Positions 6,836 through 57,986 of a stretch of DNA of 64,000 nt are shown piece after piece. The position numbers and the translations under genes are program-made. Within the stretch, counting starts at the first letter, position 1; each line of letters starts with the position of its first letter. The DNA comes from Candidatus Bathyarchaeota archaeon. Its GTDB lineage: Archaea > Thermoproteota > Bathyarchaeia > Bathyarchaeales > WUQV01. The stretch spans positions 1 through 64,000 of the forward strand of contig JAGGVF010000009.1 in the NCBI GenBank assembly GCA_021158125.1. Direction: 5' to 3'. The notes under the pieces were generated by a model. That model saw only the letters and a list, made by a program, of their open reading frames with translations. It made no database searches and had not been told where the DNA came from.

Positions 6836-7402
6836 ATGAAAATAAAGAAAATTAAATTGGCGAAATCGCTAAAAATGGCCCTACTGTTAGTTTCATCACT
6901 GCTAATTGCCAGTGTAAGCGCTGCAGTGTATAACAGCCTAACTTTAAAATCACAAATTTCCATACAAACGCAACCAGTTCAGTTTACTAACGGAGCAGAC
7001 ACCCCCAGTGGCTCAACAGTAAATCCTACATATTGTGTTCTAAGTCTATCCTGCTACCCTAACTCAACAACAACATATGAGAAAGCCGTAAATATTACTA
7101 ACACAGATACGTCGCCTCATGATATTAGATTAAGACATGTATCAATTTCACCGAATGGAACTTCAGATGTAGGGAACTTTACCAGTATAACATTCTATCT
7201 TCTAGACGCTTCTGGTAACCAGCAAGCTTCTATGACATACACAACGAGCAACAATACTTGGTCAGTGTCTCCATCAGAAACAAGTTACGTATCCATTCCT
7301 GGAGGCAATACAAACTGGACAATTAAAGTTGTAATAGTGACCTCGGAAAATGCTCAAGCAAACATAAGCTGTAACGTAGAGATGGCCTTAGATGTCAAAT
7401 AG
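6836..7402 (+). CDS. Secreted protein with Sec-type signal peptide
   Basis: A 188-residue exported protein. A lysine-rich n-region, a hydrophobic core (MALLLVSSLLIASVSAA) and an ASVSAA-type cleavage site near residue 30 form a Sec signal. The mature part is rich in Thr, Ser and Asn with many N-glycosylation sequons and beta-strand character, as in archaeal surface subunits. A GAGGTGA ribosome binding site at 6825-6831 precedes ATG 6836. The family is not recognised; a loose likeness to TasA/SipW-type subunits is only an impression. Confidence 0.6.
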   Translation: MKIKKIKLAKSLKMALLLVSSLLIASVSAAVYNSLTLKSQISIQTQPVQFTNGADTPSGSTVNPTYCVLSLSCYPNSTTTYEKAVNITNTDTSPHDIRLRHVSISPNGTSDVGNFTSITFYLLDASGNQQASMTYTTSNNTWSVSPSETSYVSIPGGNTNWTIKVVIVTSENAQANISCNVEMALDVK

Positions 7403-8018
7403 ATCTCTCCCTTTTTCTTTTTCCAGTTTGGAAACGATCAAGGATAATTATATATTAAGGAAAGTTCTGTTCAATGTTATTCTAATAGTGTTCTTTTTTG
7501 CTATAATATCGAATGTAACTGCCGAAAGTTATTGCTCTTTTATGTTAAAAACTTTAACACCTATTTCGCAGCCTCTACTCGTTCTAGACAGTAATAGCAC
7601 ATACACTTTATTGAAAGGGAAATATAACACAAGTGCCTTAGTTACTGTTCAAGCTACTGTTTCTATTCCTTCAAATTACTCGGATGTTTTAAGAATAATC
7701 AGCAACTACTCTGGTTCTTTAGAAGTCAATTTAGAGGTTTACAGTTACAATAATTTAACTCGAATTTCCAATGCAACTATACGGCTACGAAACTCCACTA
7801 ACTCGGTATTTGATCAAATAATTGTTGAGAATGGAAATTTGACGCAAAGCAAGCCGAATATCCCCTATGAATTAAGTCCATCAGAAACGCTATATATAGA
7901 TGTAGTTAATCTTCAAGCTAATGCAACTGGAACAACTTATGTCTACACAAGGCTAAGAATCAGAATCCCAAACAAGACTGCATTCATCCTGTATACAATT
8001 ACGTTCAAATTTACATAA
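7392..8018 (+). CDS. Secreted or membrane-anchored surface protein
   Basis: A 208-residue protein whose ATG overlaps the end of the preceding gene by 11 bases, implying translational coupling. Residues 24-44 form a signal or anchor helix (VLFNVILIVFFFAIISNVTA). The rest is beta-rich with roughly ten N-x-S/T sequons, which suggests a glycosylated cell-surface protein. No family is recognised. It probably acts with the 188-residue secreted protein and the 7-TM protein upstream. Confidence 0.55.
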   Translation: MSNRSLPFSFSSLETIKDNYILRKVLFNVILIVFFFAIISNVTAESYCSFMLKTLTPISQPLLVLDSNSTYTLLKGKYNTSALVTVQATVSIPSNYSDVLRIISNYSGSLEVNLEVYSYNNLTRISNATIRLRNSTNSVFDQIIVENGNLTQSKPNIPYELSPSETLYIDVVNLQANATGTTYVYTRLRIRIPNKTAFILYTITFKFT

Positions 8019-8109
8019 GTTTGGCTTTAATTACTGCGAATCTTTATTGTTGGTTCATATGTGTTAAATATGGTTTTGTTTATTGCTTTCAAAAGAGGTG
8101 AAGGTCAGA

Positions 8110-8550
8110 TTGCGTAGAATATTTAGAAATGAACGCGGTATTTCGCCTATACTGGCTACTTTGCTGCTGATAGTGATCGCCGTAGCAGCTATAATTGTGA
8201 CTTATGCGTGGATAACAACCTACATGGGCGGAGCGACTTCTCACGCAGGAGTTTACTTGCAGAAAGAGGCAGTCAGCTGGGGAAGTGGAACACCGAAGAA
8301 CATAACAATTTATGTTAGAAACAGTGGAACAGCGGATGCGTACATAGACAAAGTTTACATAGGCACTTCGGAAAACAACTTGTTACTGCAGACAGATGTA
8401 GCTTTCAATCCTTCAACTGGCTTTGTTGGAAAGGAAGGAGGAGTAGTTGCTATCTACGTGAATTACACGTGGTCAAGCGGCCAATGGTACTACTTCAGGA
8501 TAGCTCCTAAAGTCGGTGAACCACTAACGTTCCAAGCGAAGGCTCCATAG
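8110..8550 (+). CDS. Type IV pilin / archaellin-like protein
   Basis: A 146-residue pilin of the archaeal pilin N-terminal family. The class III signal ends in NERG just before ISPILATLLLIVIAVAAII, so the prepilin peptidase should cut after Gly10 and leave the hydrophobic helix that packs in the filament core. The C-terminal domain (from about residue 50) is beta-rich and has N-x-T sequons. I chose TTG 8110 because GAGGTGA at 8095-8101 sits eight bases before it; an in-frame TTG at 8083 would add nine residues. The peptidase gene follows. Confidence 0.85.
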   Translation: MRRIFRNERGISPILATLLLIVIAVAAIIVTYAWITTYMGGATSHAGVYLQKEAVSWGSGTPKNITIYVRNSGTADAYIDKVYIGTSENNLLLQTDVAFNPSTGFVGKEGGVVAIYVNYTWSSGQWYYFRIAPKVGEPLTFQAKAP

Positions 8551-8646: not shown

Positions 8647-9441
8647 ATGCAAGCGATATTACAAGCAATAAGAGTTATGCTTTCACTGCTCTTTCTAGGT
8701 TATGCTTCTTGGAGCGATATTAAAACTAGAGAAGTAACCAATCGAGTCTGGCTTTTGTATGCACCTTTAGGTTTTATGTTCACATTGTTAGACGGCTTCC
8801 TTTATGGAAGTTTCAATTATTGGATACTTTTCGGAGTTTCCGTAGTAACTACATGGACTTTAGCCGTAGCCTTATTTTACTTAGGTGCCTTCGGCGGTGC
8901 TGATGCAAAGGCTTTCATGTGCCTAGCATTGGCCTTTCCAATTTATTTAAAGAATATTTTTAATTTTCAACTTGTAAATGGGCATCCAATCTTTCCGCTT
9001 ACAGTTTTCACAAACTCAATGATTCTAGCTGCATCAAGCGTTATTTACATGCTCCTACAAAACCTTCTCTGGAAGCTTAAAATGCGTTCCAAACTTTTTG
9101 AAGGGCTAGAAAAAGAGCCTTTCTGGCGAAAAATCCTAGTTATCCTTTGTGGATACAAGGTTTCTTTGGAAAAACTCAGGGAAAAAGATTTTTACTTCCC
9201 ATTGGAGGATATAAAAGAAAAAGACGATAAAAAAGAGAGGTTCTTGATTATTTTTCCGAAGGATGAAGACAGGAATGAAATATTGGAAAGACTTGGCTCT
9301 GCAGTTGAAAATGGAAATATTAACCCGCAAGTTTGGGCCAGTCCAGGTTTACCTATGTTAGTGTTTGTCACAGCTGGCTTTCTGGTTGCAGTTTTCTTCG
9401 GAGACATAGTATGGTTTTTAGTAAGCCTAATTTTAGGCTAA
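8647..9441 (+). CDS. Prepilin peptidase (A24 family)
   Basis: A 264-residue aspartic membrane protease that removes class III signal peptides from pilin-like precursors. Both family aspartates are present: Asp24 in SWSDIKTREV and Asp86 in GGADAKA, the GxGD-type site. Several membrane segments flank them, with a charged cytoplasmic insertion at about residues 155-220 and a final span at the C-terminus. It lies between the pilin gene and the convergent pilin-like operon and is the only such peptidase in the window, so it probably processes both sets. Confidence 0.88.
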   Translation: MQAILQAIRVMLSLLFLGYASWSDIKTREVTNRVWLLYAPLGFMFTLLDGFLYGSFNYWILFGVSVVTTWTLAVALFYLGAFGGADAKAFMCLALAFPIYLKNIFNFQLVNGHPIFPLTVFTNSMILAASSVIYMLLQNLLWKLKMRSKLFEGLEKEPFWRKILVILCGYKVSLEKLREKDFYFPLEDIKEKDDKKERFLIIFPKDEDRNEILERLGSAVENGNINPQVWASPGLPMLVFVTAGFLVAVFFGDIVWFLVSLILG

Positions 9442-9455
9442 AAGTAACGAAATTT

Positions 9456-11414
9456 TTACTCAACTAATTGGATTTCCGGTGGATGTTCAACTATAATCCA
9501 TAATCCTGCGTTATCTGGAGCAGACGGGTCATAGATTAAATCCGTATTTTCAATGGATACGACTGCGCCGAACCATGTTATGTCGAGTGGATACTGGAAT
9601 AAGGCTTGATGAAGAGCTACAGGTGAAAATTCGATGGTTACTTCAGAATTTTTTGTAACATTTAATGCGCCAGTTTCTTGTCCTGCGATGCTGTCGAAAA
9701 AGTAGAGGTTAATGTTGTTAATGTCGGTGAACATTATTCCCGCTCCAACTCCATTAGATACGAACTGACTCCAATGATGCTCCCATTTTCCGTCTGAAAA
9801 GTTATAGAAGAAATGACTTCCGCTGCTTGTTTGAACCGCGACTGGTTTCTGGTTGTTTGTTCCGTTTTCAGTGAATACTTGGAAGTTTCCGCTTTTTGTT
9901 ATTATTATTGGGGTTAAATCTGTTAGTGCTCTGTTTTCTGGGCTTGTTGATGCGTTTACGAAGATTGGTCGAATGGCATATGTATAGTAAGTTGTGTTTG
10001 CCGGGAAAGTTATGACTATTTGTGCATATGTGTTTGGGAAACCCCAGTATGAGTAGCTGGGCCATTCTGCTTCTTGTTGAACTATGTCTCTGATAGTTCC
10101 GTTGATTATTGGGAATGATGGGGATGCATAAAATCTTGGATTGTGACCGTTTATTCTCATGAAATCTGCCCTACATGTAGAAGTTTCAATATAGAAGTCG
10201 CCGCTTGCATAATTGATGGTCACTGTTATTACGCCGTTATCTAAAATGGCTTTACCTGAAGCTTGTATTTTATCGTTAAAGTTTCTTTGAGTTGCATATG
10301 ATGTTTGTTCTGCTGAGTCCCGGCCGTCCCACCATATAGTGACGTTTTTTATTGTGTGATCTATTAGGAAGACTATCATGTTTCCGTACGAGAATTTTGT
10401 TTCTTTGTTGCTTCTGCTTAATGGAACAGTATAGTCAGAAGCCCAATCCTCAACTTGGAAGGGTATCTGCCTCTCTTCAAGGTTTTCAGCATTTGAATTT
10501 GCACTTACACGAATACATTTTACTGGCACTGGCGGGATGGGCTTTCCGTCCAAAAGCTTTTGACCTAACCATCTTAAAGTGCCGTTTTGAAGGACTTCAA
10601 TGACGATTTTATCATATTCCAGTTGAGAGTAAATATTTTCCATTCCTGTAGCGTTCCAGTTGAAAATGTACGTGTACTGAGGTTTTCTTATCGTTGAGTA
10701 GAAACTTGTTGCAGTTATCCCTCTATCATCTGAAACCTTAAGCAAAAAGCATGTCTTATCCACTTTATTCGGGATTTCCACGAGATATTGATTGCCTTGA
10801 GCTAAAACATCCTGCGAAGTTATAGGCGTCCATCTTGATGTAGTATTATCATAGTAGTAAAAAACGAAGTTTTGCGAGTTAAGGTTTAACTCGGTAAGGT
10901 TTTCATCTTTTACTACGCTGACTGTGGCGTGTGTGCCAGTAACGTTTACTATGTTAAGCAGCAAGGAGCAATGACTGCTATAAACTATGTTGTTAATTCC
11001 AATGCTTGACAAGTTATAAACTATGTGAAGGAAACCTGCGGAATAGCTTGAAATCTCGTACCATTGTGTTGAAAAGTTCATGTTTACTATTTGGAATGAG
11101 GGGTTCCATTCCGGATGGGAATTAGCAATGAATTCAAGTCCGCTGCTAAGATAATTAAGCGCCGATTCATGTGCGAAGGTTGCGTTGCCAGTTACCTGTA
11201 ACACTGAACAGTAGTATCCAACAGCGAACTCTAACATTTGTTTCAAGGAAATGTTCATTTCGTCAACAGAAGACAAAACATTTGTTTGTTCTTTGGGTAA
11301 GGAGAAATTGATCATGGAGTAAGTTGTAACGACCGCTGTGACGAGAACTATAGCTAATAAAACAGCCGCAATTATCGAAAACTGTCCTTTTTCATCTCTT
11401 ATGATTTTTATCAA
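9456..11414 (-). CDS. Large anchored pilin-like surface protein (652 aa)
   Basis: A 652-residue protein with a class III-type N-terminus: RDEKG followed by QFSIIAAVLLAIVLVTAVVTTY, then a long beta-rich, sequon-rich ectodomain. I infer an oversized minor pilin or tip protein; no ectodomain family is recognised. The start is TTG 11414. Its GGAGG site lies inside the last codons of the upstream gene, so the two are translationally coupled. It is the last gene of the minus-strand secretion operon and converges with the prepilin peptidase gene. Confidence 0.65.
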   Translation of the reverse strand: MIKIIRDEKGQFSIIAAVLLAIVLVTAVVTTYSMINFSLPKEQTNVLSSVDEMNISLKQMLEFAVGYYCSVLQVTGNATFAHESALNYLSSGLEFIANSHPEWNPSFQIVNMNFSTQWYEISSYSAGFLHIVYNLSSIGINNIVYSSHCSLLLNIVNVTGTHATVSVVKDENLTELNLNSQNFVFYYYDNTTSRWTPITSQDVLAQGNQYLVEIPNKVDKTCFLLKVSDDRGITATSFYSTIRKPQYTYIFNWNATGMENIYSQLEYDKIVIEVLQNGTLRWLGQKLLDGKPIPPVPVKCIRVSANSNAENLEERQIPFQVEDWASDYTVPLSRSNKETKFSYGNMIVFLIDHTIKNVTIWWDGRDSAEQTSYATQRNFNDKIQASGKAILDNGVITVTINYASGDFYIETSTCRADFMRINGHNPRFYASPSFPIINGTIRDIVQQEAEWPSYSYWGFPNTYAQIVITFPANTTYYTYAIRPIFVNASTSPENRALTDLTPIIITKSGNFQVFTENGTNNQKPVAVQTSSGSHFFYNFSDGKWEHHWSQFVSNGVGAGIMFTDINNINLYFFDSIAGQETGALNVTKNSEVTIEFSPVALHQALFQYPLDITWFGAVVSIENTDLIYDPSAPDNAGLWIIVEHPPEIQLVE

Positions 11415-11416
11415 AC

Positions 11417-12742
11417 TTAAACACCTCCCATTTCTCCAAGCTGTAAGATAACAAGCCTGGATTTTCCGGGTGCAGTAAATGTTTCTTTATAAATTACGGG
11501 GCGGTAATACATGAGAAGGGCAAGTGCAGCTATTCTAATGTCTGGTGTTCTTGTTAAACCCATGGCAACTAGGGCTCCCCCGCTGTTGTGTTTAAAAGTT
11601 GCCGCTGCATGGTAGCCGTTAACTGGTTCAAAGACGTCGGCTTCGATGGTAAGGTGATAACTGTTTTCTAACCATTCTGGAAGTGCTCTGCTTGCACTTT
11701 GGTATGGAGATGGATAAATACCGTAATAATTGGAACGATAATAAGCGTCGGCAGTGAAGTGGACAAGCACTTTGTAGGCTTGGGTTATATCTTTTGTAAG
11801 CCAACTCGTGCTGTAAGTGTACGCTTTATTATCTAAACCTTGCAGGAAAGCATTTAATCCAGCTGGTCCAACCCTCTTTATTCCATAAATTCCATAGTTG
11901 TTCTGTGAATTTGAAAGTGCAACAGTGTTTGTTACGTAGTAAAGCGGGTAACCCACTATGCTGACCCATTTCCAGTTGTACTGATTTACCTTTTTGCCTA
12001 GAGTGTAGCAGTAGCGTGCATAAGAGCCATGAGCTGAATCGTAGCCCTCGCTTTCACGTGAGCCTCCTTGACAGTATTCGCTTGGTATTGGCACAACTTC
12101 TCCAAAGGTGTTAATTATCACTGCGTCCATGACTTCCTCCGTTGGGATTGAAGTTATTTTATTTCCATCTAGTAAGCTTAGTAGTTGAGAAGTGCTGTTC
12201 ACTAGAATTGTTGTTTCAAAATATGGTGAAAGCATGTTGTATAGGTCTAGTGCTAAAGTTTGTGCTGTGTACCCAGTAATCCACCATCCGTTTGCATCCT
12301 CACAATTCAATATATAAAGAGTTAGATTTTTCCCGTTTTCAGAAATTTTGTGAACAACCCTCCTGTAAGTTACATCGGGAGAGCTAACTGTGTAAGATGC
12401 AGAATACGAAAAGGCGCCTTTTCCCACAAAATTGGTGAGCGTTTTCTTTAAAGAATAGACACCGTTTTCAACTTCGAAAACACTTAGATTGTAAATTACG
12501 TTCGGTGGTAGACAAGCTGAAAGTGCTGTTTGAAGCTCACTCCACGACTGTTCATCTTCAGAAAAGACAGCTCTGCTTAAGAAACCGTTTGAGTCTAGAT
12601 TCTTAAGAATCGTGAATCCCAATCTTTTTAAGTTTTGAGGCGCAACTTCCCTTGGCGACGGTAGGATTATAAAATAGGATGCTGTAATGAAGGCCGTTGT
12701 TATTATGAGAATTACAATCCCAACTTCAATAGTTCTCATCAT
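11417..12742 (-). CDS. Anchored surface protein of the pilus operon (441 aa)
   Basis: A membrane-anchored protein with an N-terminal hydrophobic helix (VGIVILIITTAFITASYFII) and an extracytoplasmic domain of about 400 residues rich in Tyr, Ser and Asn. The family is not recognised. ATG 12742 was chosen because GGAGG lies nine bases upstream, within the end of the preceding gene; a TTG at 12751 overlapping the upstream stop would add three residues. The helix position is like a pseudopilin, but a clear class III cleavage motif is missing. Confidence 0.6.
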   Translation of the reverse strand: MMRTIEVGIVILIITTAFITASYFIILPSPREVAPQNLKRLGFTILKNLDSNGFLSRAVFSEDEQSWSELQTALSACLPPNVIYNLSVFEVENGVYSLKKTLTNFVGKGAFSYSASYTVSSPDVTYRRVVHKISENGKNLTLYILNCEDANGWWITGYTAQTLALDLYNMLSPYFETTILVNSTSQLLSLLDGNKITSIPTEEVMDAVIINTFGEVVPIPSEYCQGGSRESEGYDSAHGSYARYCYTLGKKVNQYNWKWVSIVGYPLYYVTNTVALSNSQNNYGIYGIKRVGPAGLNAFLQGLDNKAYTYSTSWLTKDITQAYKVLVHFTADAYYRSNYYGIYPSPYQSASRALPEWLENSYHLTIEADVFEPVNGYHAAATFKHNSGGALVAMGLTRTPDIRIAALALLMYYRPVIYKETFTAPGKSRLVILQLGEMGGV

Positions 12743-12747
12743 ATAAA

Positions 12748-13968
12748 TCAACCTCCAAGCTTAGTTACTTGGTAGCCCTTTAGACTCCAGAGAGCTAATT
12801 TCGCTTGATACGGTACTTCGCCAATTAATACTTGCCTTAGGTCTGTAGCAACCCACTCTTGATTAGACGGGTCATCGCCGAAGGTTATGTTGAAACTAAG
12901 CGTTTGAATCTGCCACGGCATGACAGAAACTCCGTACTCATTTCCTTTGCGGCAAGTTACTATTAGAACCCCTGGGCTTTCCAAGTATTCTTGTGGGATT
13001 TGTGTTCGATTGTAGGCTTTTCCATGCGTTCCAGCTGCATAATTTAAGTGTCCGCTGTAATTTCCAAGTAATTGAACCGGTTCGAGTTCCCAATTTTTAT
13101 TTAACACAAAGAATGTTGCATTATAATGTAGTGCACCGTTGTTTTCGTATTGTTTTACGTCCCACGAATGCGCAAGTATTATTGTGCCGTTTTCTATGTT
13201 TTCAATGAACGGTATAACGTTGCCGGCGCTTGTTAAAGCTTGCTTATATATGTAACCTACACCGTAGAGATTTGCTAATTTCACCGTTGTTATAATTATG
13301 TAGTTTTTAGATGCATCAATGTTTTCGAATGAGAAGTGAGTTTTTCCGCTTCCACCCGTTGTACCCGATGCTGTAGAAAACGTAATAATGGGGTATCCGT
13401 CTCCGTCAACTCCGCTGACATAAAATAGATTGCACGTTACATTTGCGTTACTGATTGGAGAACTAATTCCGTTAACGTTAACATCAAAACTTAGGGAGTT
13501 TCCGCTTTCGTGAATGTTGGAAAAACTCACGTGGATTACTGGGGTTAAACTTAATTGGAAACCATATAATCCTTCTACTCCAAGCAGTTTTTGTGCAGTC
13601 TCATAAGTTACGCATTCTTCAAGTGGTACAAGTAAATAGTCCCCGGGGCCCAATGTGATATTACTATAAAATATGCCTGAGCCCGGAGGATATTCAACAA
13701 GGGTTTCTGAGGAAACGAGTTTCATAACGTAGTATGGATTAAGCGAGTATTGTTCAAAGTTAGGGTCTCCAAGTCCGAAAACACCTGAAGTGTTACCAAA
13801 GCTAAGTAATATATTGTCAAGTATGTCGCTGCATTTGATTGCGAGATGACTGTGAAATTGGTAAAGTAGTGCTGCTTGAATCACTTGGCTGAAAAGGCTA
13901 ATGAATATGAAGAAGGCTACCAGAAAAGTTGTAACCGCAATCAGATGATCTATGGTTGTGCTTACCAT
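12748..13968 (-). CDS. Anchored surface protein of the pilus operon (406 aa)
   Basis: A 406-residue protein with an N-terminal hydrophobic helix (LIAVTTFLVAFFIFISLFSQV) and a beta-rich ectodomain; residues from about 160 to 240 look Ig- or CNA-like (ISSPISNANVTCNLFYVSG). I chose ATG 13968 because GGAGG lies nine bases before it and it leaves a four-base gap after the upstream gene, whereas the longest frame (14004) would overlap that gene by 32 bases. It resembles TadG/pseudopilin-type proteins in layout only. Confidence 0.6.
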   Translation of the reverse strand: MVSTTIDHLIAVTTFLVAFFIFISLFSQVIQAALLYQFHSHLAIKCSDILDNILLSFGNTSGVFGLGDPNFEQYSLNPYYVMKLVSSETLVEYPPGSGIFYSNITLGPGDYLLVPLEECVTYETAQKLLGVEGLYGFQLSLTPVIHVSFSNIHESGNSLSFDVNVNGISSPISNANVTCNLFYVSGVDGDGYPIITFSTASGTTGGSGKTHFSFENIDASKNYIIITTVKLANLYGVGYIYKQALTSAGNVIPFIENIENGTIILAHSWDVKQYENNGALHYNATFFVLNKNWELEPVQLLGNYSGHLNYAAGTHGKAYNRTQIPQEYLESPGVLIVTCRKGNEYGVSVMPWQIQTLSFNITFGDDPSNQEWVATDLRQVLIGEVPYQAKLALWSLKGYQVTKLGG

Positions 13969-13972
13969 TAGA

Positions 13973-14452
13973 CTAACCTCCAAACGAGAAAAGGAAACTT
14001 CCATTTGCGAATTTTGTAACTAAGATACATGCATTTGTAGAGTTACTGATGAAAACTGAGCTTTCCACCCAATCCACATTCGGTCCAACTGTAACGTATG
14101 TTTCAACTTCCATGTTTAAACCGACAAGAGTTAAAGTAATATTCAACCTTTGGTTAGATTCTCCTCTACTTAAGGGTGCTAGTTGGCCTCTTGCAGTGTA
14201 ATAATAGCCATCTATGTATTTTGGTACTCCAGGGTTGTAGGTTATGGTGCCCGCTAAAACAGATTCATGATTTAACGAGAAGTAGAGTTGTTGAATTGAA
14301 CTTGCCAAACGACCTGCAACTGTTTCAAGGGCGAGTTCTCTTCTTGAATCAACCCAAATGTTCATCATCCAGTTGGCAGCCATTGGAAACAGGAATATCT
14401 GTAAAATTAAGAGCGGAACCATAATTATGTATTCTATTGTTATGTACGGCAT
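13973..14452 (-). CDS. TadE-like pseudopilin
   Basis: A 159-residue protein whose N-terminus TIEYIIMVPLLILQIFLF has the Glu-Tyr followed by a hydrophobic helix typical of TadE-like pseudopilins. A small beta-rich domain follows. GGAGGTG lies 11 bases before the ATG. It lies in the middle of the secretion operon between two larger anchored proteins, which suggests a minor pilin or a filament initiator. Assignment to the TadE family is by pattern. Confidence 0.65.
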   Translation of the reverse strand: MPYITIEYIIMVPLLILQIFLFPMAANWMMNIWVDSRRELALETVAGRLASSIQQLYFSLNHESVLAGTITYNPGVPKYIDGYYYTARGQLAPLSRGESNQRLNITLTLVGLNMEVETYVTVGPNVDWVESSVFISNSTNACILVTKFANGSFLFSFGG

Positions 14453-14473
14453 CTTTTTAAAGACACCTCCATT

Positions 14474-15298
14474 TCATGTGTGAAGCCCAATTGAGACCCC
14501 CACTCTGCTTATGTACGCTTCAACTACTGATCCACTATCAATATTGATTGTTTCCTCCATCTCTGAAGGAGAAAAACCGAAAAATTCTGCGTCGTAAATC
14601 AACGGTGTAACAACTATTCTTATTTTTGTAACGCCTAGGTTCTGTCCAATCCTATAATTTATCAATTGGGTAGACTTAAAAGTGGCAGTTTTGTGTTGTT
14701 TCGGTTTTTCTTCGCTGTATAAAGTTGGTAGATAAAGTCTATAATGTTTTTCACTGCCAAAATTTGCCTTTACCAATCTGATACATGGGTTTAATATGAT
14801 TCTGATGTAGTTGCCTGCTACTGCTTTTTCGATTATGTAAACTCTTGCAATTGGGGCGGTTGCTCCTTCAAAAACTAATGAATTATTAGTCGGATAAACT
14901 AGTTCAAAGTAGTTGTCAGAAATTGAATACTTCGATATAGGCATTTTAAAGGCAAGTATTCCGGAGACTCCGTAGCAGAGGAGGTATTCTCCGGAAGCGT
15001 TTCTGTAATAGATTGTATAATTTAATGCGTTGGGTATGAATTCCATCTCTCCGTATCTGCTTGAATATCTACTAGTCTGAACTGTGCCGGGTATCCAAGC
15101 TAAGTCATCTATTTGAACCGCTGTATTCTGCATAAACTGTTTGATAGAATCAAATTCGCTCTCTGAAATTCTAGACTCTAAAAAATTGTTAGCAAAGGTC
15201 ATAGCTACTAAAACTAGGGAAACAACAATCGCCGTAATTATAACCGCTGAAACAGCCGGGCTTGCTCCCTTGACGCCTTTAAACATGTTTTCTTTCAT
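14474..15298 (-). CDS. Type IV pilin-like protein (274 aa)
   Basis: A 274-residue protein with a class III signal: GVKG precedes ASPAVSAVIITAIVVSLVLVAM, so cleavage after Gly11 is expected. A coiled segment (ESRISESEFDSIKQFM) and a beta-rich domain follow. GGAGG precedes the ATG by about eight bases. It is the pilin-like gene closest to the platform protein gene in the operon and a candidate main subunit of this system, although the 146-residue pilin at 8110 competes for that role. Confidence 0.75.
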   Translation of the reverse strand: MKENMFKGVKGASPAVSAVIITAIVVSLVLVAMTFANNFLESRISESEFDSIKQFMQNTAVQIDDLAWIPGTVQTSRYSSRYGEMEFIPNALNYTIYYRNASGEYLLCYGVSGILAFKMPISKYSISDNYFELVYPTNNSLVFEGATAPIARVYIIEKAVAGNYIRIILNPCIRLVKANFGSEKHYRLYLPTLYSEEKPKQHKTATFKSTQLINYRIGQNLGVTKIRIVVTPLIYDAEFFGFSPSEMEETINIDSGSVVEAYISRVGVSIGLHT

Positions 15299-15312: not shown

Positions 15313-17031
15313 TTATGTAGGGGTGCTAGGAGCGAAGAACATGGGGACAAGTTTAGCTGCGAGAATGGCTATTAGAACCAGTAACGCTGAATGCTTAAAC
15401 CCGGCTGCAACTGATTCCTCGCTTATCTTGCCAGCTACCAACCCTATAAGGTAGCAGTGAACTATTACAGATGTTGAGAAGATCATGGTTAGGAAATTCA
15501 TGTCTATGTTTGTGGTTGTTGTTTGAGTTCCTCCCACAGTTAGTGTTTGAGCTGTAAACATTAGGGTCATCAGGGTGGTTGCAACGAGCAATATAGCGGC
15601 AAAGTATGGGATCATAACGTATGGACGAACAGCCATTTTCTTCTCTTTTTCAACTTCCTGGGTCATAGTGTTGAATCTTGTAAGCGATTCTATCATGGCT
15701 ATGGTTCCCCCGCCTACGTCGATTGTTTCAACGAGTAGGAACATCACTATCTGAGTTAGCCAGCTCTTCGTTCGTTTAACAAAGTCCATAATGACCTTCC
15801 TAACTGGAATGCCCCAAGAAATCTCTTTACTTATCTGTTTTAGCTCCTTGCTGAATTCTCCATAATCCCTATCGGACAAAGTTTCGATACATTTTTCAGG
15901 AGCTAAACCGGTTTTCCTTATTTCAGTCAAATCTCTAAGAAAGTTTGCAACTCCATGCTCTAGGCTGAACTTTTTTCTCGAAATCTTCCCTTGAACTAAA
16001 GCTGCCGGCGCAACCGATATGAATAAGGTTATTGCTACGCTTGTAGGTAAGTCTACATATGAGCTAAGCGTGGCAAAGTATGGAACCTGGATGATTCCAA
16101 AGAAGTTGTTGAGAATTAAGAATAGGATTATGCCGGCGGCCCATGAGACTGCGTAGACCTTGTATGATGTCCAATCTGTGATGGGGGTTTTCGGTTGCAT
16201 GTTGTGGGCTAGGTAGATGAACATTAGTGAAAGCATGGGTGTAAAAACATATGTGTAGAGAATTAAGCTTGAGCTGCTTGAAATTCCAGTGCTGTAAATG
16301 GATTCTACGCTGAAAAGAATGTAAAAGCAAAGGGACATCAAAACCATTATAATGATGAAGGATTCTAGGAGCATTCCTAAACGTTCAGCAGCAACCTTAA
16401 CACGTGAAGCTCTAATTCTGAAGATTTCCTCAGACTTTGTCTCCAGAAAGTGCGTTATATCTCCACCGATGATCACCGTAGAGGCGTAACCAGCAACAAA
16501 ATCCCTAAAAATGTCAAGGGGATTTCTCTTTGCAGCGTTTTCCAAAGCTGTTAATGGGTCTATGCCAAAAATTTCAACATCCTTTATTATTTCCTTTGCT
16601 TCTTTTCGCATGGCTGGAAGAAGCTCAACTTGTGAAAGCCTTTTGAAGCTTACGTATGGTGGAATGCCGCCTGAGGCCATCACTGTAATGTAAGTGGCGG
16701 CGAACGGCATTTCTCTCTCAAGCGCACTTGCCCTTTCGCTTGCTCTTGACATGGGGATTACGAGAAAACATATCATAACGTATGCTGGCATGGGCACTAA
16801 GAATATTAGTGGAATAAACTTGAAGAAATACAACATAATTATTGCTGCTATTGAAACTGGGAGAGTTAACAAAGCTACAAAAAACATTAAGGAAACATAG
16901 GTTTCGGGGTATATTCTTATCTGTGCTTTTTCCAAGTATTCTTTGAATTCGAAAACGTTTTTTAGAAATCCAGGTGCTATTCGCCCGAATATTCTATACG
17001 ACCAGCCTTCAAGAACGTCGAGTAGGGGCAA
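15313..17031 (-). CDS. Type II secretion F / TadC / FlaJ-like platform protein
   Basis: A polytopic protein of 572 residues that forms the inner-membrane platform of archaeal type IV filaments. Two T2SSF domains can be made out: the first at about 100-240 (EREMPFAATYITVMASGGIPPY) and the second at about 365-500 (FLRDLTEIRKTGLAPEKCIE). Each is followed by membrane segments, as in archaeal FlaJ/PilC proteins. The start is placed at TTG 17031, nine bases after AAGGAGG; TTG 17040 touches that site. It overlaps the end of the ATPase gene by 23 bases. Confidence 0.88.
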   Translation of the reverse strand: MPLLDVLEGWSYRIFGRIAPGFLKNVFEFKEYLEKAQIRIYPETYVSLMFFVALLTLPVSIAAIIMLYFFKFIPLIFLVPMPAYVMICFLVIPMSRASERASALEREMPFAATYITVMASGGIPPYVSFKRLSQVELLPAMRKEAKEIIKDVEIFGIDPLTALENAAKRNPLDIFRDFVAGYASTVIIGGDITHFLETKSEEIFRIRASRVKVAAERLGMLLESFIIIMVLMSLCFYILFSVESIYSTGISSSSSLILYTYVFTPMLSLMFIYLAHNMQPKTPITDWTSYKVYAVSWAAGIILFLILNNFFGIIQVPYFATLSSYVDLPTSVAITLFISVAPAALVQGKISRKKFSLEHGVANFLRDLTEIRKTGLAPEKCIETLSDRDYGEFSKELKQISKEISWGIPVRKVIMDFVKRTKSWLTQIVMFLLVETIDVGGGTIAMIESLTRFNTMTQEVEKEKKMAVRPYVMIPYFAAILLVATTLMTLMFTAQTLTVGGTQTTTTNIDMNFLTMIFSTSVIVHCYLIGLVAGKISEESVAAGFKHSALLVLIAILAAKLVPMFFAPSTPT

Positions 17032-18661
17032 TGGCCTCAACCTCCTTTCCTAACTTTTCAATTTCCACTATTCTCTTGTAGAACTCTTTAGGACGGGAGT
17101 AGTATTCTGCGATTATATTTGCTACATCTTTGTAGCTTCTTATTCCTCTAACCCGCATCCAATGTAGAACTTTCTTTCGGCGTTCAATTTCTTTTATAAG
17201 CTCTTTTCTTGTTAAGCCTACATGTTCGGATATTGATGCTAACATCACGCTGTTGTTGAGTGTAGAAACGAAATCGTCCTTTGCCGGTCTCCATTTGAAG
17301 ACACTCCGGTAATCTTCGTAATCTGCAATTTCGTCTACGTATATGACTCTTCTATGGGCTCTTCTTTCACCCTTTCTTTTCTCTAGGTGAACTCTTCGGA
17401 CGGTTAGGACTATGTTCATTAGTGGGATATAGGCTGGGGCGATGTCCATGGGCTTTTGGGTAAGTCTCTTAACAGCTGAGTCTAAGTCTTCTGCGTGCAT
17501 TGTGCACATTCCACCGTGGCCAGTAGCTAATGCTTGGAAGAGAACGTAGGCTTCTTGCCCTCTTACCTCGCCTACTATTAGGATGTCTGGTCTATGCCTC
17601 ATCGAAGTTTTAACAAGGTCGAAAAGTGTTACTTCGCCTACTCCAGAGGCGCCTAAACCATAGCTTTGACGGGCGATAAGTGAAACCCAGTTTTCATGCG
17701 GCAGATTCAACTCTGCGGTTTCTTCAATTGTTATTATTTTGCTTCCGGGCTTAATTAGGCATGCAAGTGCGTTTAGCGCCGTAGTTTTTCCAGCTGCGGT
17801 GCCTCCTAGCACCATTATTGAGGCTCTGTTTTCTAGGCAAAGCCAGAAGTAGGCGGCCATTTCCTCCGAGAATGTGCCCAAGTTTATTAGGTCTATTATT
17901 GAGTATGGGTCTTCTCTGAACTTTCTTATGGTGAAGGCTGTTCCGAAAGGCGTAACTTCTCTTCTGTAGCATACTGCAAGCCTGTGCTTACCTGGAAGCG
18001 AAGCGTCAACTATTGGAAATGCTGAGCTTACGTGTTTTCCGGCCATGTGAACAAGTTTAACTACGAGGTTATCGAGTTCCTCGTCTGTATCAAACGTTAG
18101 ATTGGTTTCGATGCTTTCATATTTTCTATGCCAAACATAAACAGGCTTTTTCACTCCGTCGCATGAAATATCTTCAATGTTCGGGTCACGCATAAGTGCG
18201 TCTATATGTCCAAAACCTACGAGATCCTTCTCTGCATGGTACAAAATCTTATACCATGAAACTTCTGGAAGCCAACCTAGGCTTATACGGTACTTATCAA
18301 TAATTTTTTTGGCTTCTTCAGCGAAAAATTTCCTCGGGTCTTCAACTTCCTTTTTAGGCGGCTCTATTTCCGCAAGGAGTATGTCTAGTATTCTGTTGTA
18401 AATTGTTCTTTCAAGACTGTCAAGTTGCAGTTCGTCTAGGAAGTACTTGTACTCTCCTGTTTTGGGATTCTGGCCTATGGCTACATGTACAAACGGTTCG
18501 TAGAGCGGGTATCTCTCTACTATTTTGTATCCTCTTGGAATGAGTTTGGGAGGTGGCGGTGGAGGAGCAGCAGCTTTTGACTTCTGTTTTTTATACTTTC
18601 CGACGTTGATTTTTATTTTTAGCTTTTTGATTTTGGCGAATACCTTTCTTATATTTGGCAT
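17009..18661 (-). CDS. Type II/IV secretion ATPase (FlaI/TadA/GspE-like)
   Basis: The 550-residue motor ATPase for filament assembly. It has Walker A (GGTAAGKTT, about residue 286), an acidic IITIEETAEL segment, Walker B (PDILIVGEVRGQEA) and the TGHGGMCTMHA His box. The N-terminus carries a strongly basic stretch and a polyproline linker (AAAPPPPPPK), which may dock it to other components. ATG 18661 is supported by AGGAG eight bases upstream and a TATA box at 18693-18704; an earlier in-frame ATG at 18694 lies within the TATA region. Confidence 0.92.
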   Translation of the reverse strand: MPNIRKVFAKIKKLKIKINVGKYKKQKSKAAAPPPPPPKLIPRGYKIVERYPLYEPFVHVAIGQNPKTGEYKYFLDELQLDSLERTIYNRILDILLAEIEPPKKEVEDPRKFFAEEAKKIIDKYRISLGWLPEVSWYKILYHAEKDLVGFGHIDALMRDPNIEDISCDGVKKPVYVWHRKYESIETNLTFDTDEELDNLVVKLVHMAGKHVSSAFPIVDASLPGKHRLAVCYRREVTPFGTAFTIRKFREDPYSIIDLINLGTFSEEMAAYFWLCLENRASIMVLGGTAAGKTTALNALACLIKPGSKIITIEETAELNLPHENWVSLIARQSYGLGASGVGEVTLFDLVKTSMRHRPDILIVGEVRGQEAYVLFQALATGHGGMCTMHAEDLDSAVKRLTQKPMDIAPAYIPLMNIVLTVRRVHLEKRKGERRAHRRVIYVDEIADYEDYRSVFKWRPAKDDFVSTLNNSVMLASISEHVGLTRKELIKEIERRKKVLHWMRVRGIRSYKDVANIIAEYYSRPKEFYKRIVEIEKLGKEVEAIAPTRRS

Positions 18662-18692
18662 ATGTGTTCTCCTATTGAATAGTTGTACACGC

Positions 18693-18704
18693 ATTTATTA
18701 AATC
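18693..18704 (-). promoter_or_regulatory. TATA box of the pilus/secretion operon
   Basis: On the minus strand GATTTAATAAAT is centred about 37 bases before ATG 18661, placing the start of transcription just ahead of the AGGAG ribosome binding site. No comparable gap occurs before 9456, so this promoter could drive all seven genes. Confidence 0.5.
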
Positions 18705-18777: not shown

Positions 18778-21360
18778 TTAAGTTTCCTTTTCACCCAAAC
18801 TTATCTCAATTACTTTAAATCTAATCAGCAAAGCTATTACTACTACTATCACGAGAATAATCGCCATAATTATCAGCACAGTTGTCAGTGGAAATCCGCC
18901 TTGTGAAGCCCCTGCAGCTGGTAACACATCCAAATAGAGCGTTTTTTGTGCTTCCGTATAGCCGTCTTTGGACGCAACAACTGTCAGGGTGAAAGTTAGT
19001 ACAGTTTCCGTCTCCGGGGCAACGAAATTAAACGTACATGTTCCGTTAGAATTTGTATATTGTGAGAAGTTCCCGATGTCTGAGACCACTCTAACTAGTG
19101 CGTTTTGCATTGGGGTTGAATTGCAATTTACATTAACCACCAACATGACATTTTCGCCGGATACTGCTTGACTGGGAAGAACGGCTTCAAGTTCAAGTGT
19201 TCCCGGCTTCAAAGTTATTATCGTTGAAGTGTCACTTGCAGCATATCCAATCTTTGAAGCATACACAGTAATGGTCACGTTTGTCTCTTGATTAACCGGC
19301 GGCGCCACATAAGTAAATGTACAGATTCCGCTAAGGTTGGTTAAAGCTGAAGCTGAAAAGCCCCCGAATGACGCTGTAACTGTAATGTTGACGTCGGAAA
19401 CTGGTTGAGCATCGTAAGTAGCACATACAGTTATGTTCGTTGTCTTCTCGGAAATTATCACCTTAGGATAAGCATCAACTTTTAAGGTTAGAATTTTCGG
19501 CTCCACAGTAACCGTTGAATGAGAAACCCCCTCCTTATATCCTTCCTTTTCGGCAACAGCAGTTATTGTCACATTAGTTTTTTCATTAACCGCCGGTGCT
19601 GTGAAAACGAATTCGCATTTTCCTTCTAAGTCGGTAATTTTCGTCTCTGATGAAAAGTTTCCCTGATCAGCCGAAATTCTAACGTTGGCTCCTTGGATTG
19701 GTTGTCCGGCGTATGTAACATAAACTACAATGTTAACTTCTTCCTCGCTTTTCGTTGTCGATGGATAAGTTTGAACGTCAACTTTTAAAGGCGGCATAAC
19801 TTCGATGTATTTGTAGTCTGAGCCGTCGGCGTACCCCTGTTTAGATGCTGTTACGATTATCATGATGTTTGTTAGTTCTGTGATGCTTGGGGTTGTAAAT
19901 GTTGTAGTAAAGTAGCCTGTTGCGTTTGTATGGCCAGAATTGGGGCTGAAATAGCCCCCGTTTATTGACAAAAGTTTAACTGAGGCGTTTTCTATTGGGT
20001 TTGCTCCGCTTTTAACTTGAATTGTCGTTGAGACGTTCTCGAAACAGCCTGCAGCATAGGTGGAGAGGGTTAAGGAAACATCAAGTACTGGGAGTGTTTG
20101 AACGTTAATGGTGATTTGAGCAGTGTTGGTGTTTTTAGTTCCAAAGTCATCTAAAACTGTGAGCCTTGCTGTATAAGTTCCATTAGTAGAATATTTATGT
20201 CTGAAAACTGACAGCGTTGTCCATCCGCTTGTTTCACCGTCTCCAAAATCGAGATGATAGTAGTCAACTCGTCCATCATCACTTGAGTTTGTGGCGATGA
20301 ACAGAACTTCCTGATTTGGCGTAACTGTGGTTTTGTCACTTATTAACCATGCGGTTGGAGGCTTGTTTTCATAGCGGTTCGGGTGAGACAAAAATGGGAT
20401 GAAATCTATATCTGTTCCATTGCTTTCAACAGGATTTCCCTTTCCATTTGGATTTAGCGATGGATGATAAGGGCCTGCCGAGTCTCCCCAATAGTTGTAT
20501 GTTGCGTTAACGGGTTCGCTGCTGTTTGAGCGCATAGCTAGAGTGTTGCCATATAAATCATTAAAGTTGATGGAAACTCTGGATGAAGAATTTTCATAAA
20601 GTACTCCTATTTTGTTGTAAGCTATAGAATTATGCGTAATATCTAAGTCTGTTTTTCCAGAAACATAAATTCCTACATCGTTCGACATTAAATTACAATT
20701 TACAACGTGAAGATTTTCTACTTCTCCATTAATGTAGACTCCGTATTGATTGGAAGATATGGTATTGCTGTCTAGGGTTACTTGCTGGCTTGAATTTATG
20801 TTCAAGAGAATTGGAGCGACACCGTTCTTGTTTAACATTATTTTGCTGTTCTTTATTGTTAAACTGCAATCACCAATTATTTTTATGCCGTTTTCAGAGT
20901 TTTTGGTTATCTCGCAGTTTGAGATTTCTAAAGAGCTGTCCTCTATTATTATTCCGTTAACAGCGTATTCGACAGTGCAATATGCCATCTGTGAACCACT
21001 GCTAGCAATGAATTCTATTGCAACCCAATCTCCGGCTTTTGCTTCTTCTGCTGGCCTGTTTGATGTGAACGTTATCATTCTGTCTTCTGTGCCTTGCGCT
21101 ATTAGTCTTCCCGCAACATTTAGGGAGAAGTTGCCTCCAAATCTAACTTCAACTCCCGGTTCAATAGTTAATGTGACGCCGGAAGGAACTGTTATGTTAT
21201 TTATAACTATGAATGGGCTGTCTATTAAGGTCCAAACAGTGTCTTGCGTGATTACTCCTTCAACATAAGTTGCATTGGTGACTGGAAGGGAATCGGTTAG
21301 GAGCATGAACATGCTAATTAATAGGTTGATTAGCAGGAACACGACTTTCTGTTTTCTCAT
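18778..21360 (-). CDS. Large modular surface protein: beta-helix, PKD and Ig-like repeats
   Basis: An 860-residue cell-surface protein. It has a signal peptide (to about 30), a right-handed beta-helix region at about 40-300 with repeated N-x-I-turn patterns and an NYWGD turn, a PKD domain at about 340-415 (YYHLDFGDGETSGWTT), about four Ig/Invasin-like repeats of near 100 residues to about 815, each with a G-x-C/Y-x-F-T-x-T/A-P pattern, and a C-terminal membrane anchor with a basic tail. It sits just upstream of the secretion operon on the same strand and probably acts as an adhesin or shaft protein. Ligand unknown. Confidence 0.8.
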   Translation of the reverse strand: MRKQKVVFLLINLLISMFMLLTDSLPVTNATYVEGVITQDTVWTLIDSPFIVINNITVPSGVTLTIEPGVEVRFGGNFSLNVAGRLIAQGTEDRMITFTSNRPAEEAKAGDWVAIEFIASSGSQMAYCTVEYAVNGIIIEDSSLEISNCEITKNSENGIKIIGDCSLTIKNSKIMLNKNGVAPILLNINSSQQVTLDSNTISSNQYGVYINGEVENLHVVNCNLMSNDVGIYVSGKTDLDITHNSIAYNKIGVLYENSSSRVSINFNDLYGNTLAMRSNSSEPVNATYNYWGDSAGPYHPSLNPNGKGNPVESNGTDIDFIPFLSHPNRYENKPPTAWLISDKTTVTPNQEVLFIATNSSDDGRVDYYHLDFGDGETSGWTTLSVFRHKYSTNGTYTARLTVLDDFGTKNTNTAQITINVQTLPVLDVSLTLSTYAAGCFENVSTTIQVKSGANPIENASVKLLSINGGYFSPNSGHTNATGYFTTTFTTPSITELTNIMIIVTASKQGYADGSDYKYIEVMPPLKVDVQTYPSTTKSEEEVNIVVYVTYAGQPIQGANVRISADQGNFSSETKITDLEGKCEFVFTAPAVNEKTNVTITAVAEKEGYKEGVSHSTVTVEPKILTLKVDAYPKVIISEKTTNITVCATYDAQPVSDVNITVTASFGGFSASALTNLSGICTFTYVAPPVNQETNVTITVYASKIGYAASDTSTIITLKPGTLELEAVLPSQAVSGENVMLVVNVNCNSTPMQNALVRVVSDIGNFSQYTNSNGTCTFNFVAPETETVLTFTLTVVASKDGYTEAQKTLYLDVLPAAGASQGGFPLTTVLIIMAIILVIVVVIALLIRFKVIEISLGEKET

Positions 21361-49529: not shown

Positions 49530-50690
49530 TTAGATGGCTATCCTTTTCTTCAGTTGGTTTATTATTGTTAGTTTCTGTATCTCTGTGGTTCCTTCGTAGA
49601 TTTCTGTTATTTTTGCGCATCTGTGGAATCTTTCTATGTGGTATTCTGCCAAGTAGCCGTATCCTCCGTGGATTTGGATGGCTTCGTCTGTAACTTCCAT
49701 GGCTACTCTGCTTGCATAGGCTTTGGCGGTTGAGGTTGCAACTGGGTCAACTTTTCCTTGGTCGTAGAGCCAAGCCGCCTTATAGGTTAAGAGTCTTGCA
49801 GCTTCGATTTTCATGTGCATTTCCGCTAGTTTGAATGATATACCTTGAAAGTCGATTATTGGGCGGCCGAACTGCTTTCGTTTTTTAGCGTATTGGAACG
49901 CCCTTTCGAATGCTCCCTGTGCTATGCCAACTGCTTGTGCTGCTATGGTGATTCTTGTTCCGTCAAAAAGCTCTAACGCGTAATAGAATCCTCTATTTAA
50001 TTCTCCAACTAGGTTGTTTTCCGGTACTCTGAGGTTGTCGAATGAAAGTGAACCAGTTATGCATGGCCTTATGCCCATTTTTCCATGGAGTTTTTCTACG
50101 TCTAATCCGGGCATTCCTTTTTCAGCGAGGAAAAGGCTTTGTCCTCTGTAGGGTGGTTGAGCATTGGGGTCTGTTTGGCAAAGTATTATGAAATAGTCTG
50201 CTATTGGGGCGTTAGTTATGAAGGTTTTGTTTCCGTTGATGACCCATTCGTTTCCTTCTTTTACTGCTGTTGTGTCAAGTCGGGTTATATCGCTTCCATG
50301 CTCCGGCTCTGTAAAGGCCGCTGCGGCTGTTGCTTCTCCTCGAGCTAAGGGTGGAATATATTTTTCCTTTTGTTCTTCTGTTCCATGCTTTAAGAGGACG
50401 TCCGGAATCATTAGGTTGCCAAGCGATATGGCCGCTCCCAATCCCGGGTCTGCTCTGCACATTTCTTCAACTACTATGCATTCCTCGAGAACCCCGTAGC
50501 CCTGTCCGCCGTATTCTTCGGGTATTCTCATGCTTGTGAATCCGAGTTCAGCGGCTTTCTTGTAGAGTTCCATTGGAAATTCTTCTTTTCTGTCGAGTTC
50601 TAAGGCTAATTCAAGTGTAAATTCTTTTTGGCAGAACTCTCTTATGGCTTTTTTAATTTCTTTTTGTTCATCGTTTAATTCGAAACGCAT
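49530..50690 (-). CDS. Acyl-CoA dehydrogenase
   Basis: A 386-residue FAD enzyme that oxidises acyl-CoA to enoyl-CoA and passes electrons to ETF. Signature segments are AAAAFTEPEHGSDITRLDTTA, WVINGNKTFITNA and IQIHGGYGYLAEYHIERFHRC, with the catalytic Glu in TEIYEGTTEIQ. Full length. It is the last gene of the hdrA-etfB-etfA-acd operon; no CoA ligase, enoyl-CoA hydratase or thiolase lies in the window, so the acyl chain used is unknown. Confidence 0.95.
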   Translation of the reverse strand: MRFELNDEQKEIKKAIREFCQKEFTLELALELDRKEEFPMELYKKAAELGFTSMRIPEEYGGQGYGVLEECIVVEEMCRADPGLGAAISLGNLMIPDVLLKHGTEEQKEKYIPPLARGEATAAAAFTEPEHGSDITRLDTTAVKEGNEWVINGNKTFITNAPIADYFIILCQTDPNAQPPYRGQSLFLAEKGMPGLDVEKLHGKMGIRPCITGSLSFDNLRVPENNLVGELNRGFYYALELFDGTRITIAAQAVGIAQGAFERAFQYAKKRKQFGRPIIDFQGISFKLAEMHMKIEAARLLTYKAAWLYDQGKVDPVATSTAKAYASRVAMEVTDEAIQIHGGYGYLAEYHIERFHRCAKITEIYEGTTEIQKLTIINQLKKRIAI

Positions 50691-50709
50691 CCGCTGTCTT
50701 CCTTTTGAT

Positions 50710-51696
50710 TTAGGCTTTTTCTCCCTTTAGTTCCTTCAGTTTATTTGTTAGTACTGGGACAACTTTGAAGAGGTCGTCGACGATGCCGTAATCGGCGACG
50801 CTGAAGATAGGTGCGTTTGGGTCTTTATTTACCGCAATTATTAGGTCTGAATTTTTCATTCCGAGCACGTGTTGGAAGGCGCCGCTTATTCCAAGTGCAA
50901 TGTAGAGTTTGGGCTTAACTGTTTTTCCTGAAGTTCCAACTTGTCGGTCGCTTGGAAGCCATCCTTTGTCGACTATTGGACGTGAACAAGCGAGAACTCC
51001 TCCAAGGGTTTTCGCTAACTCTTCTGCTACTGGAATGTTGCTTTCATCTTTTATTCCTCTTCCAATGGCTACGATGACGTCTGCTGCTGTTATGTCTACG
51101 CCGCCTGGTGGAGGCAGAACGTATTCAACGAAGCGTTTCCTAGGAGTTTCTTCTGCTATTGGGGAAGGAACCTCGATGATTTCTCCGTTCATTGGTTCTT
51201 CCTTTTTAGCTTGGAAAGCTGCTTGACGAACTGTTACTAGGTAGCTTTCAGCCTTTCTAAGCACGGCTTCAACGTTTACTTTTCCACCGTACATTTGCCT
51301 AGTTACTGTTAATGCGTCGTTTTCAAATTTTATGTCTATGCAGTCTGTTGCTAGAGGGATGTCTAATGAAACAGCTAGGCTCGGCGCCAACTCAACTCCA
51401 TAGGATGTGTGTCCAATCATTGTTAGCAGTGGCTTACGTTCTTTTATCAGGTGGGAAAGCACTTTCTGGTAGGCGTCAGAGTTGAAGTTTTCCAGTTTTG
51501 GATCTTCGATTAAGAGAACCTTTTTTGCGTATTCTGAAAGTGTTTTTGCGTGTTCTTTGATATCTTTTCCTAGAATTACTGCTGTTAGTTCCATGTTTGT
51601 TTTTTCAGCTAGTTCTCTGCCCTTAGTTAGCATTTCGAAGGTTATATCCCTAATTTCTCCTCTTCTATGCTCGGCGAGAACAAAAATTTCTCCCAT
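50710..51696 (-). CDS. etfA: Electron transfer flavoprotein, alpha subunit
   Basis: A 328-residue ETF alpha subunit that carries FAD and shuttles electrons. The C-terminal FAD-binding domain shows IGRGIKDESNIPVAEELAKTLGG, ACSRPIVDKGW, QVGTSGKTVKPKLYIALGISGAFQH and AVNKDPNAPIFSVADYGIVDD. The N-terminal domain is of the usual length. It begins one base past the etfB stop. Whether this ETF bifurcates electrons cannot be settled by eye; the HdrA-type neighbour makes the question worthwhile. Confidence 0.95.
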   Translation of the reverse strand: MGEIFVLAEHRRGEIRDITFEMLTKGRELAEKTNMELTAVILGKDIKEHAKTLSEYAKKVLLIEDPKLENFNSDAYQKVLSHLIKERKPLLTMIGHTSYGVELAPSLAVSLDIPLATDCIDIKFENDALTVTRQMYGGKVNVEAVLRKAESYLVTVRQAAFQAKKEEPMNGEIIEVPSPIAEETPRKRFVEYVLPPPGGVDITAADVIVAIGRGIKDESNIPVAEELAKTLGGVLACSRPIVDKGWLPSDRQVGTSGKTVKPKLYIALGISGAFQHVLGMKNSDLIIAVNKDPNAPIFSVADYGIVDDLFKVVPVLTNKLKELKGEKA

Positions 51697-51697
51697 T

Positions 51698-52486: not shown

Positions 52487-52503
52487 AATGCTTCCCTCTC
52501 TTA

Positions 52504-54867: not shown

Positions 54868-54993
54868 TTTGTTAATCTCCAACTTTACCCATTTTTGTTA
54901 GCTTATTAGAGAAAACCATAGAGAGGAAAACGCTTAAAAAATCTTATGTTCATTGTATCTGTTCATTATAATTTGAAAGGCGAGGCGTATTAA

Positions 54994-56103: not shown

Positions 56104-56227
56104 CAACATTTCTTGTACTCTTAGTTTCTCAGATTCAGGTTGTTCCACGCATAAATATTTTGATGCTCAAACCGTGGAGCCAAGCTTATTATGGAACAGT
56201 GTAGGAAAACTATTAAAGGAATAGTTT

Positions 56228-56241
56228 ACATTTGTAAATGT
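56228..56241 (+). promoter_or_regulatory. Palindromic operator candidate upstream of the flavoprotein gene
   Basis: ACATTTGTAAATGT is a palindrome with perfect six-base arms around GT. It lies 46 bases before ATG 56274 and just before the AAGGTGAG site at 56259, where a bound repressor could block expression. No second copy was noticed. Confidence 0.3.
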
Positions 56242-56273
56242 TCTTAATTCAGCAACATAAGGTGAGAGTTGGA

Positions 56274-57974: not shown

Positions 57975-57986
57975 GAGGTGTAGCAT

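Follow-up and report, generated by a model that had tools for sequence, protein, structure and literature searches.

Five consecutive genes of a Candidatus Bathyarchaeota archaeon, here called A to E, most likely encode a module of accessory (minor) pilins for an archaeal type IV pilus (T4P). The window analysed is a stretch of 64,000 nt, part of contig C9 of a 1.37 Mb genome (assembly GCA_021158125.1), and all five genes lie on its minus strand. The pilus machinery beside them is of a known kind. The enlargement of D and E and the absence of leaders from B, C and D are unusual, and the leaderless trio is the surprising part.

Gene A (14474-15298, 274 amino acids [aa]) encodes a minor pilin with the class III leader KG/ASPAVS, the slash marking the cleavage site. 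Genes B (13973-14452, 159 aa) and C (12748-13968, 406 aa) encode leaderless pilin-like proteins with the N-termini MPYITIEY and MVSTTIDHL. Gene D (11417-12742, 441 aa) encodes a leaderless pilin helix and beta strands with an apparently inserted alpha/beta region, and gene E (9456-11414, 652 aa, TTG start) has the class III leader KG/QFSII. A preliminary description of this DNA had reported the five contiguous open reading frames and noted in each product a hydrophobic helix at the N-terminus followed by an outside domain; it was correct on both points.

Gene order and distribution of the module

A scan of genome contigs with a profile of D gave 42 loci, 41 from Bathyarchaeota or Bathyarchaeum and one assigned only to Thermoproteota. 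The order A-B-C-D-E on one strand was kept in all 42, as far as each contig reaches. TadA or TadC genes adjoin the module in 37 loci, and four others start at C or D on a short contig. The lineage of L062 and L118 is a real exception: it has the five genes and the peptidase gene without adjacent TadA/TadC, which indicates that the module behaves as a unit. In the same lineage gene A (5419-8292 in L062, 6012-8885 in L118) is enlarged to about 954 aa, and the insertion lies within the pilin domain.

Among 201 genomes of the class, 51 had a strong match to any of A to E and 43 had all five. Most of the eight partial sets stand at contig ends by their coordinates, a placement that was not confirmed for every one. 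E was present in 18 of 41 near relatives, a count that includes the window's genome. The proteins share about 30-67% sequence identity among relatives, in dozens of genomes with the same gene order, and pilin and peptidase genes often lie right beyond E. The recurrence of the five-gene set is far beyond chance, and the module is widespread in Bathyarchaeia. The invariant synteny and the co-occurrence support the earlier proposals that the genes are expressed jointly and that their products belong to a multi-protein complex. Small versions also exist. Three relatives carry the same cassette with a D of about 150 aa and an E of about 245 aa, and many Bathyarchaeia genomes, the window's own included (L042), have extra loci with small paralogues of C, D and E.

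With the chosen starts, the intergenic gaps A-B, B-C, C-D and D-E are 21, 4, 5 and 2 bp. The negative spacing mentioned in the preliminary description arises only with longer starts, for C from the first ATG (418 aa) instead of the ATG behind GGAGG (406 aa) and for D from an upstream TTG (444 instead of 441 aa). GGAGG precedes every start from A to E. For C, D and E it falls within the final codons of the preceding gene, as had been described; for A and B it comes just past that gene's stop. B and D have a conserved C-terminal Gly-Gly, whose codons are supplied by the GGAGG that serves the next gene as ribosome-binding site.

Correspondence with five haloarchaeal families

Searches of Pfam and NCBIfam with the window proteins A to E gave no usable match, and none of the five hit a curated family. 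Relatives of these proteins matched Pfam families below the cut-off: B to DUF7266 in 11 of 36 members (best 3e-4), C to DUF7287 in 3 of 37 (best 0.009), members of the E family to DUF7261, a small A paralogue (L038) to DUF7289 (1.3e-5) and a D paralogue of a second locus to DUF7288. Haloarchaeal plasmid loci found via the ATPase consist of ATPase and TadC genes followed by five unnamed genes, and the Pfam names of these five are DUF7287, DUF7288, DUF7261, DUF7266 and DUF7289.

In hhalign comparisons the best partners were all different: A with DUF7289 (3.5e-4), B with DUF7266 (2.1e-4), C with DUF7287 (1.9e-3), E with DUF7261 (1.3e-3) and D, the weakest, with DUF7288 (0.04). The decoy set was not neutral: L119 supplied the top decoys of B and D, its own DUF7266 and DUF7288 proteins, and among the decoys of A were two pilins with a Pilin_N domain or similar. 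Each E-value is weak alone. Homology of A to E with the five families of haloarchaeal T4P loci is nevertheless likely, least surely for D, because the partners pair off one to one, the loci are of the same type and Pfam matches point independently to the same families. Together with the ATPase and TadC neighbours, this match supports the pilin-like nature first proposed for the five proteins. Five families of unknown function are thereby linked with a single conserved pilin module, which two distant archaeal groups share. A literature search on the DUF names found no paper.

Leaders and N-termini of the five proteins

The test for a class III leader asked for a [KR][GA] site in a basic leader before the helix with a possible start upstream, as against an in-frame upstream stop. 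Leaders were present in A in 29 of 38 loci and in E in 36 of 42, and in none of the loci for B (0/39), C (0/38) or D (0/42). The class III site sought in each of the five proteins is thus found in two of them. In 23 loci for B, 14 for C and 29 for D a leader would not fit, since an in-frame stop lies at most eight codons from the helix motif. In five loci (L063, L066, L069, L075 and L083) gene A has its class III motif in frame but no ATG, GTG or TTG ahead of it, which may reflect other start codons or assembly errors.

B, C and D begin at the N-terminus expected for a mature pilin, or up to two residues ahead of it, typically with M[PA]HITIEY, MAGSTIDHL and MMRTIEV. The acidic residue near the mature N-terminus is E7 in all 36 members of B, D7 in 36 of 37 members of C and E6 in all 39 members of D; A and E lack an acidic residue around mature position 5. 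An initiator Met is usually removed before Pro or Ala; if that happens here, most members of B, C and D have their acidic residue at position 6.

Small D paralogues with displayed N-termini have G/Q-x-R-x-x-E or a close variant, and the initiator Met of D aligns with Gln+1 after their cleavage site (KG/QMRVIE versus MMRTIE). Paralogues of B and C are leaderless like B and C themselves. Each of the five families shows a class III site in one or more of the haloarchaeal loci; one start in L120 is annotated too short. This distribution among paralogues and haloarchaeal homologues suggests loss of the leader and not gain, so that B and C probably lost it in the Bathyarchaeia line and D only in its large version.

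Type IV pilins are regarded as requiring leader cleavage by the prepilin peptidase. Bathyarchaeia, a widespread and little-cultured class, have leaders on two minor pilins and none on three, and haloarchaeal homologues, and for D close paralogues too, still carry them; this offers a natural test of leader function. We tentatively suggest that B, C and D are "pre-matured", bypass the peptidase and form a permanently assembly-competent priming complex, a reading that we consider possible but do not favour. D would represent the latest step, and in that reading the loss of its leader may coincide with the gain of its large alpha/beta head. A literature search on pilins without signal peptides found no paper.

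The missing leaders also bear on a different placement of the trio, in which B, C and D act like ArlF and ArlG of the archaellum: they would remain in the membrane and pseudoperiplasm and tether or steer the base of the pilus to the S-layer, and the filament would take up A and E alone. The two archaellum proteins are similar to archaellins, have no signal peptide and act as stator or anchor (PMC8978795). B, C and D are leaderless in every testable locus, which favours such a role, as does a beta-helix/PKD surface protein beside the motor genes. On the other hand, haloarchaeal homologues of B, C and D and small D paralogues carry class III sites, which indicates that the ancestral state was probably a processed, filament-type pilin, and B, C and D have kept the acidic residue of polymerising pilins. 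We regard an anchoring role, though the main rival to a place at the tip, as rather unlikely on this evidence.

Enlarged heads of D and E

The predicted model of D (pLDDT, the predicted local distance difference test score, 84.5; pTM, the predicted template modelling score, 0.67) shows an N-terminal helix, the first beta strands, an alpha/beta region of about 290 residues (about 141-420) and a closing strand (428-437). Since this last strand follows the alpha/beta region, the region appears in the model to be inserted into the pilin head. Paralogues of D without the insert have about 140-160 aa. The insert matched no Pfam family, and a fold search with D gave nothing significant in PDB or BFVD; a sequence-profile search of PDB with C, D and E gave nothing. 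A by-eye reading of the insert as a degenerate amidotransferase or ThuA-like domain is unproven; no confident match to a glutamine amidotransferase-like fold was found. Segments of the D alpha/beta domain, split by other sequence, are shared by a secreted protein of 1313 aa in L116 (2877-6818), which matched no Pfam family.

The model of E (pLDDT 84.2, pTM 0.81) consists of a pilin module (residues about 1-245) and a beta-rich head (about 245-652). Fold matches of the head in PDB included supersandwich domains of PL26, GH36 and GH38 enzymes and of YidC (E-values 1.6e-6 to 1e-3), a fold common in carbohydrate-active proteins. Small E paralogues have no extra head domain. E is also the length-variable member of the set, with homologues of 634-1188 aa. 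Inserts fall around residues 255, 510 and 595, within 390-460 and at the C-terminus, and related ones recur at differing sites. Two inserts, in the relatives L043 and L076, are lectin-like domains of the F5/8 type C (galactose-oxidase-like) kind. A PDB search with the recurrent inserts of about 150 aa gave chance-looking antibody matches or nothing. The length range, the several insert sites and the F5/8 type C inserts indicate that E is the variable and probably sugar-binding member, and by analogy a probable adhesin. Heads of the adhesin type give domain-level hints at the function of the module.

The large non-pilin domains of D and E would suit the idea that A to E are unrelated anchored enzymes or binding proteins that share only a transcript with a pilus motor. 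This idea is disfavoured and very hard to credit, as the order and co-occurrence of A to E are invariant, the five proteins match five families of haloarchaeal T4P loci one to one, and the non-pilin parts are add-ons to pilin modules that are found alone in paralogues. Structure prediction of the outside domains, which the preliminary description had recommended, covered D and E; both models were pilin modules fused to real non-pilin domains and neither was an unrelated enzyme.

The same domains could belong to a machine for secretion or surface processing: a short pseudopilus would handle polysaccharide or export enzymes, and the D domain and the E head would be its catalytic or substrate-binding parts. 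The likeness of the E head to domains of PL26, GH36 and GH38 enzymes agrees with this, as do the top PDB match of D, an enzyme (CTP synthase) although non-significant, and the recurrence of the D domain in the secreted 1313-aa protein. GH36 enzymes have the supersandwich as an accessory to a catalytic barrel, and a barrel of this type is missing in E. Pfam and NCBIfam revealed no catalytic family in D or E, and the adjacent genes encode a distinct candidate major pilin and a peptidase. A processing machine is improbable.

Neighbouring genes and other loci

Transcription of the minus strand runs from a surface protein gene through the ATPase and a TadC/ArlJ-type protein to A, B, C, D and E. The TadC/ArlJ-type membrane platform protein (15313-17040, 575 aa) matches T2SSF (8.4e-24), and the TadA/ArlI-type assembly ATPase (17009-18694, 561 aa) matches T2SSE (1.3e-35) and PilB3_C (5.4e-7); both are on the minus strand. 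The surface protein (18778-21360, minus strand) has a right-handed beta helix, PKD and Ig-like domains and a C-terminal membrane helix. Its gene adjoins the ATPase in 12 of 42 related loci, and it is possibly an S-layer-like component or partner.

A candidate major pilin and an A24 prepilin peptidase are encoded on the plus strand, convergent with E. The pilin (8083-8550, 155 aa) has the class III leader RG/ISPILATLLLIVIAVAA and matches arch_flag_Nterm (1.5e-7) and UpsA (1.4e-8), and the peptidase (8647-9441) matches PF06847 (3.7e-23) and PF01478 (1.3e-11). Upstream of the pilin gene lie two genes (6836-7402 and 7392-8018) for secreted, probably beta-strand-rich proteins of 188 and 208 aa. Homologues of one or both occur near the pilin in L027 and L046. 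By eye they look like TasA/camelysin-type fibre proteins, and they matched no Pfam or NCBIfam family.

The same genome has two more T4P-type ATPase loci. The one on C13 (L042) contains small paralogues of the five-gene module and two tandem pilins, and in the one on C22 (L041) TadC is divided into two genes. Elsewhere in the window, genes named by eye from their sequence as acyl-CoA dehydrogenase, electron-transfer flavoprotein and heterodisulfide-reductase/fumarate-reductase-like stand together at 49530-59552.

A proposed role at the pilus tip

The gene set, its synteny and co-occurrence, the family correspondence, the presence or absence of leaders and the growth of domains are shown by the data. 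We infer, by analogy with bacterial tip complexes (PMC12075869), that A to E form a complex, that it sits at the tip and that it adheres; we infer too that B to D are not processed. On balance we lean towards a tip or priming complex with E as adhesin and B, C and D uncleaved. TadA and TadC would assemble the filament from the neighbouring major pilin, and the peptidase would mature this pilin and also cut A and E in the usual way. B, C and D, translated from or just before the mature N-terminus, would need no cleavage and would be assembly-ready once in the membrane. The five N-terminal helices would bundle into one complex that starts filament growth and then stays at the tip, where E would present a carbohydrate-binding-type head to surfaces or cells and D would add a second large head.

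The ATPase, TadC, peptidase and pilin neighbours, the invariant order, the co-occurrence, the lineage that has the set without a motor beside it, the one-to-one families, the supersandwich head and variable length of E and the kept acidic residue all favour this proposal, and for bacterial Tad and T4a pili it is established that minor pilins at the tip carry variable domains (PMC12075869). Several points weigh against it. The leaderless, archaellin-like ArlF and ArlG are located at the base and not at the tip (PMC8978795), and the clade 1 model of Makarova et al. (PMC4858521) places archaeal minor pilins near the base. The D insert has no confident fold match, the best in PDB being CTP synthase with an E-value of 0.09. 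The supersandwich matches of E have low TM-scores, about 0.2-0.4 of the query, and E. coli YidC shares the fold without a known sugar-binding role. Finally, electron micrographs of Bathyarchaeum tardum show no pili (PMC10477458). The genome of this organism carries the locus (L084), so expression may be conditional. A literature search on pili of Bathyarchaeia found no paper.

Comparison with known systems

The locus has the adjacent genes of a TadA/PilB-type ATPase and a TadC/PilC-type platform protein, the candidate major pilin and the A24 prepilin peptidase that characterize archaeal T4P loci. The set is an archaeal T4P accessory-pilin set of a general kind treated by Makarova, Koonin and Albers 2016 (PMC4858521). 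With clades 2, 4C and 4F of that paper the locus has in common the ATPase, TadC, dedicated pilins and an S-layer-like neighbour, and these clades likewise have multiple minor pilins of unclear role. Bathyarchaeota are not named in the paper, nor do the sections consulted describe leaderless minor pilins or domain growth of the D and E type. ArlF and ArlG of the archaellum share with B, C and D a pilin-like N-terminal helix without a class III leader and a place in a T4P-related locus. They differ in that class III sites occur elsewhere within the families to which B, C and D belong, and no sequence similarity to ArlF or ArlG was detected in A to E with Pfam and NCBIfam.

Bacterial Tad/Kil tip complexes of TadE, TadF and TadG (PMC12075869) are similar in having co-encoded minor pilins with variable domains, but all Kil tip pilins have a predicted prepilin peptidase site (PMC12075869), unlike B, C and D. 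The earlier term TadE-like is apt for B only. B has by eye the same E-[YF]-x-x-x-x-P register, and 2 of 36 B members, the window's B not among them, gave sub-threshold matches to TadE (PF07811, best E-value 0.041), so that family membership is not supported. In the tip pilins PilB and PilC of Streptococcus sanguinis, with VWA and lectin domains (cited in PMC12075869), a lectin-type domain is likewise grafted on a minor pilin. The domains there are different, and there are three subunits against five.

The closest counterparts are the haloarchaeal loci. Those of Halobaculum halophilum (L120) and Haloferax mediterranei (L121) have the ATPase, TadC and then the same five families, and in the Salinibaculum T4P locus (L119) DUF7261 was not detected. 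The order is DUF7287-7288-7261-7266-7289 in haloarchaea and DUF7289-7266-7287-7288-7261 in Bathyarchaeia. The homologues of A and B have comparable lengths (243-265 and 147-166 aa versus 274 and 159), whereas those of D and E are small (196-254 and 314-333 aa versus 441 and 652) and that of C is shorter (about 180 aa versus 406). In H. mediterranei class III sites are visible in all five families, whereas here only A and E have them.

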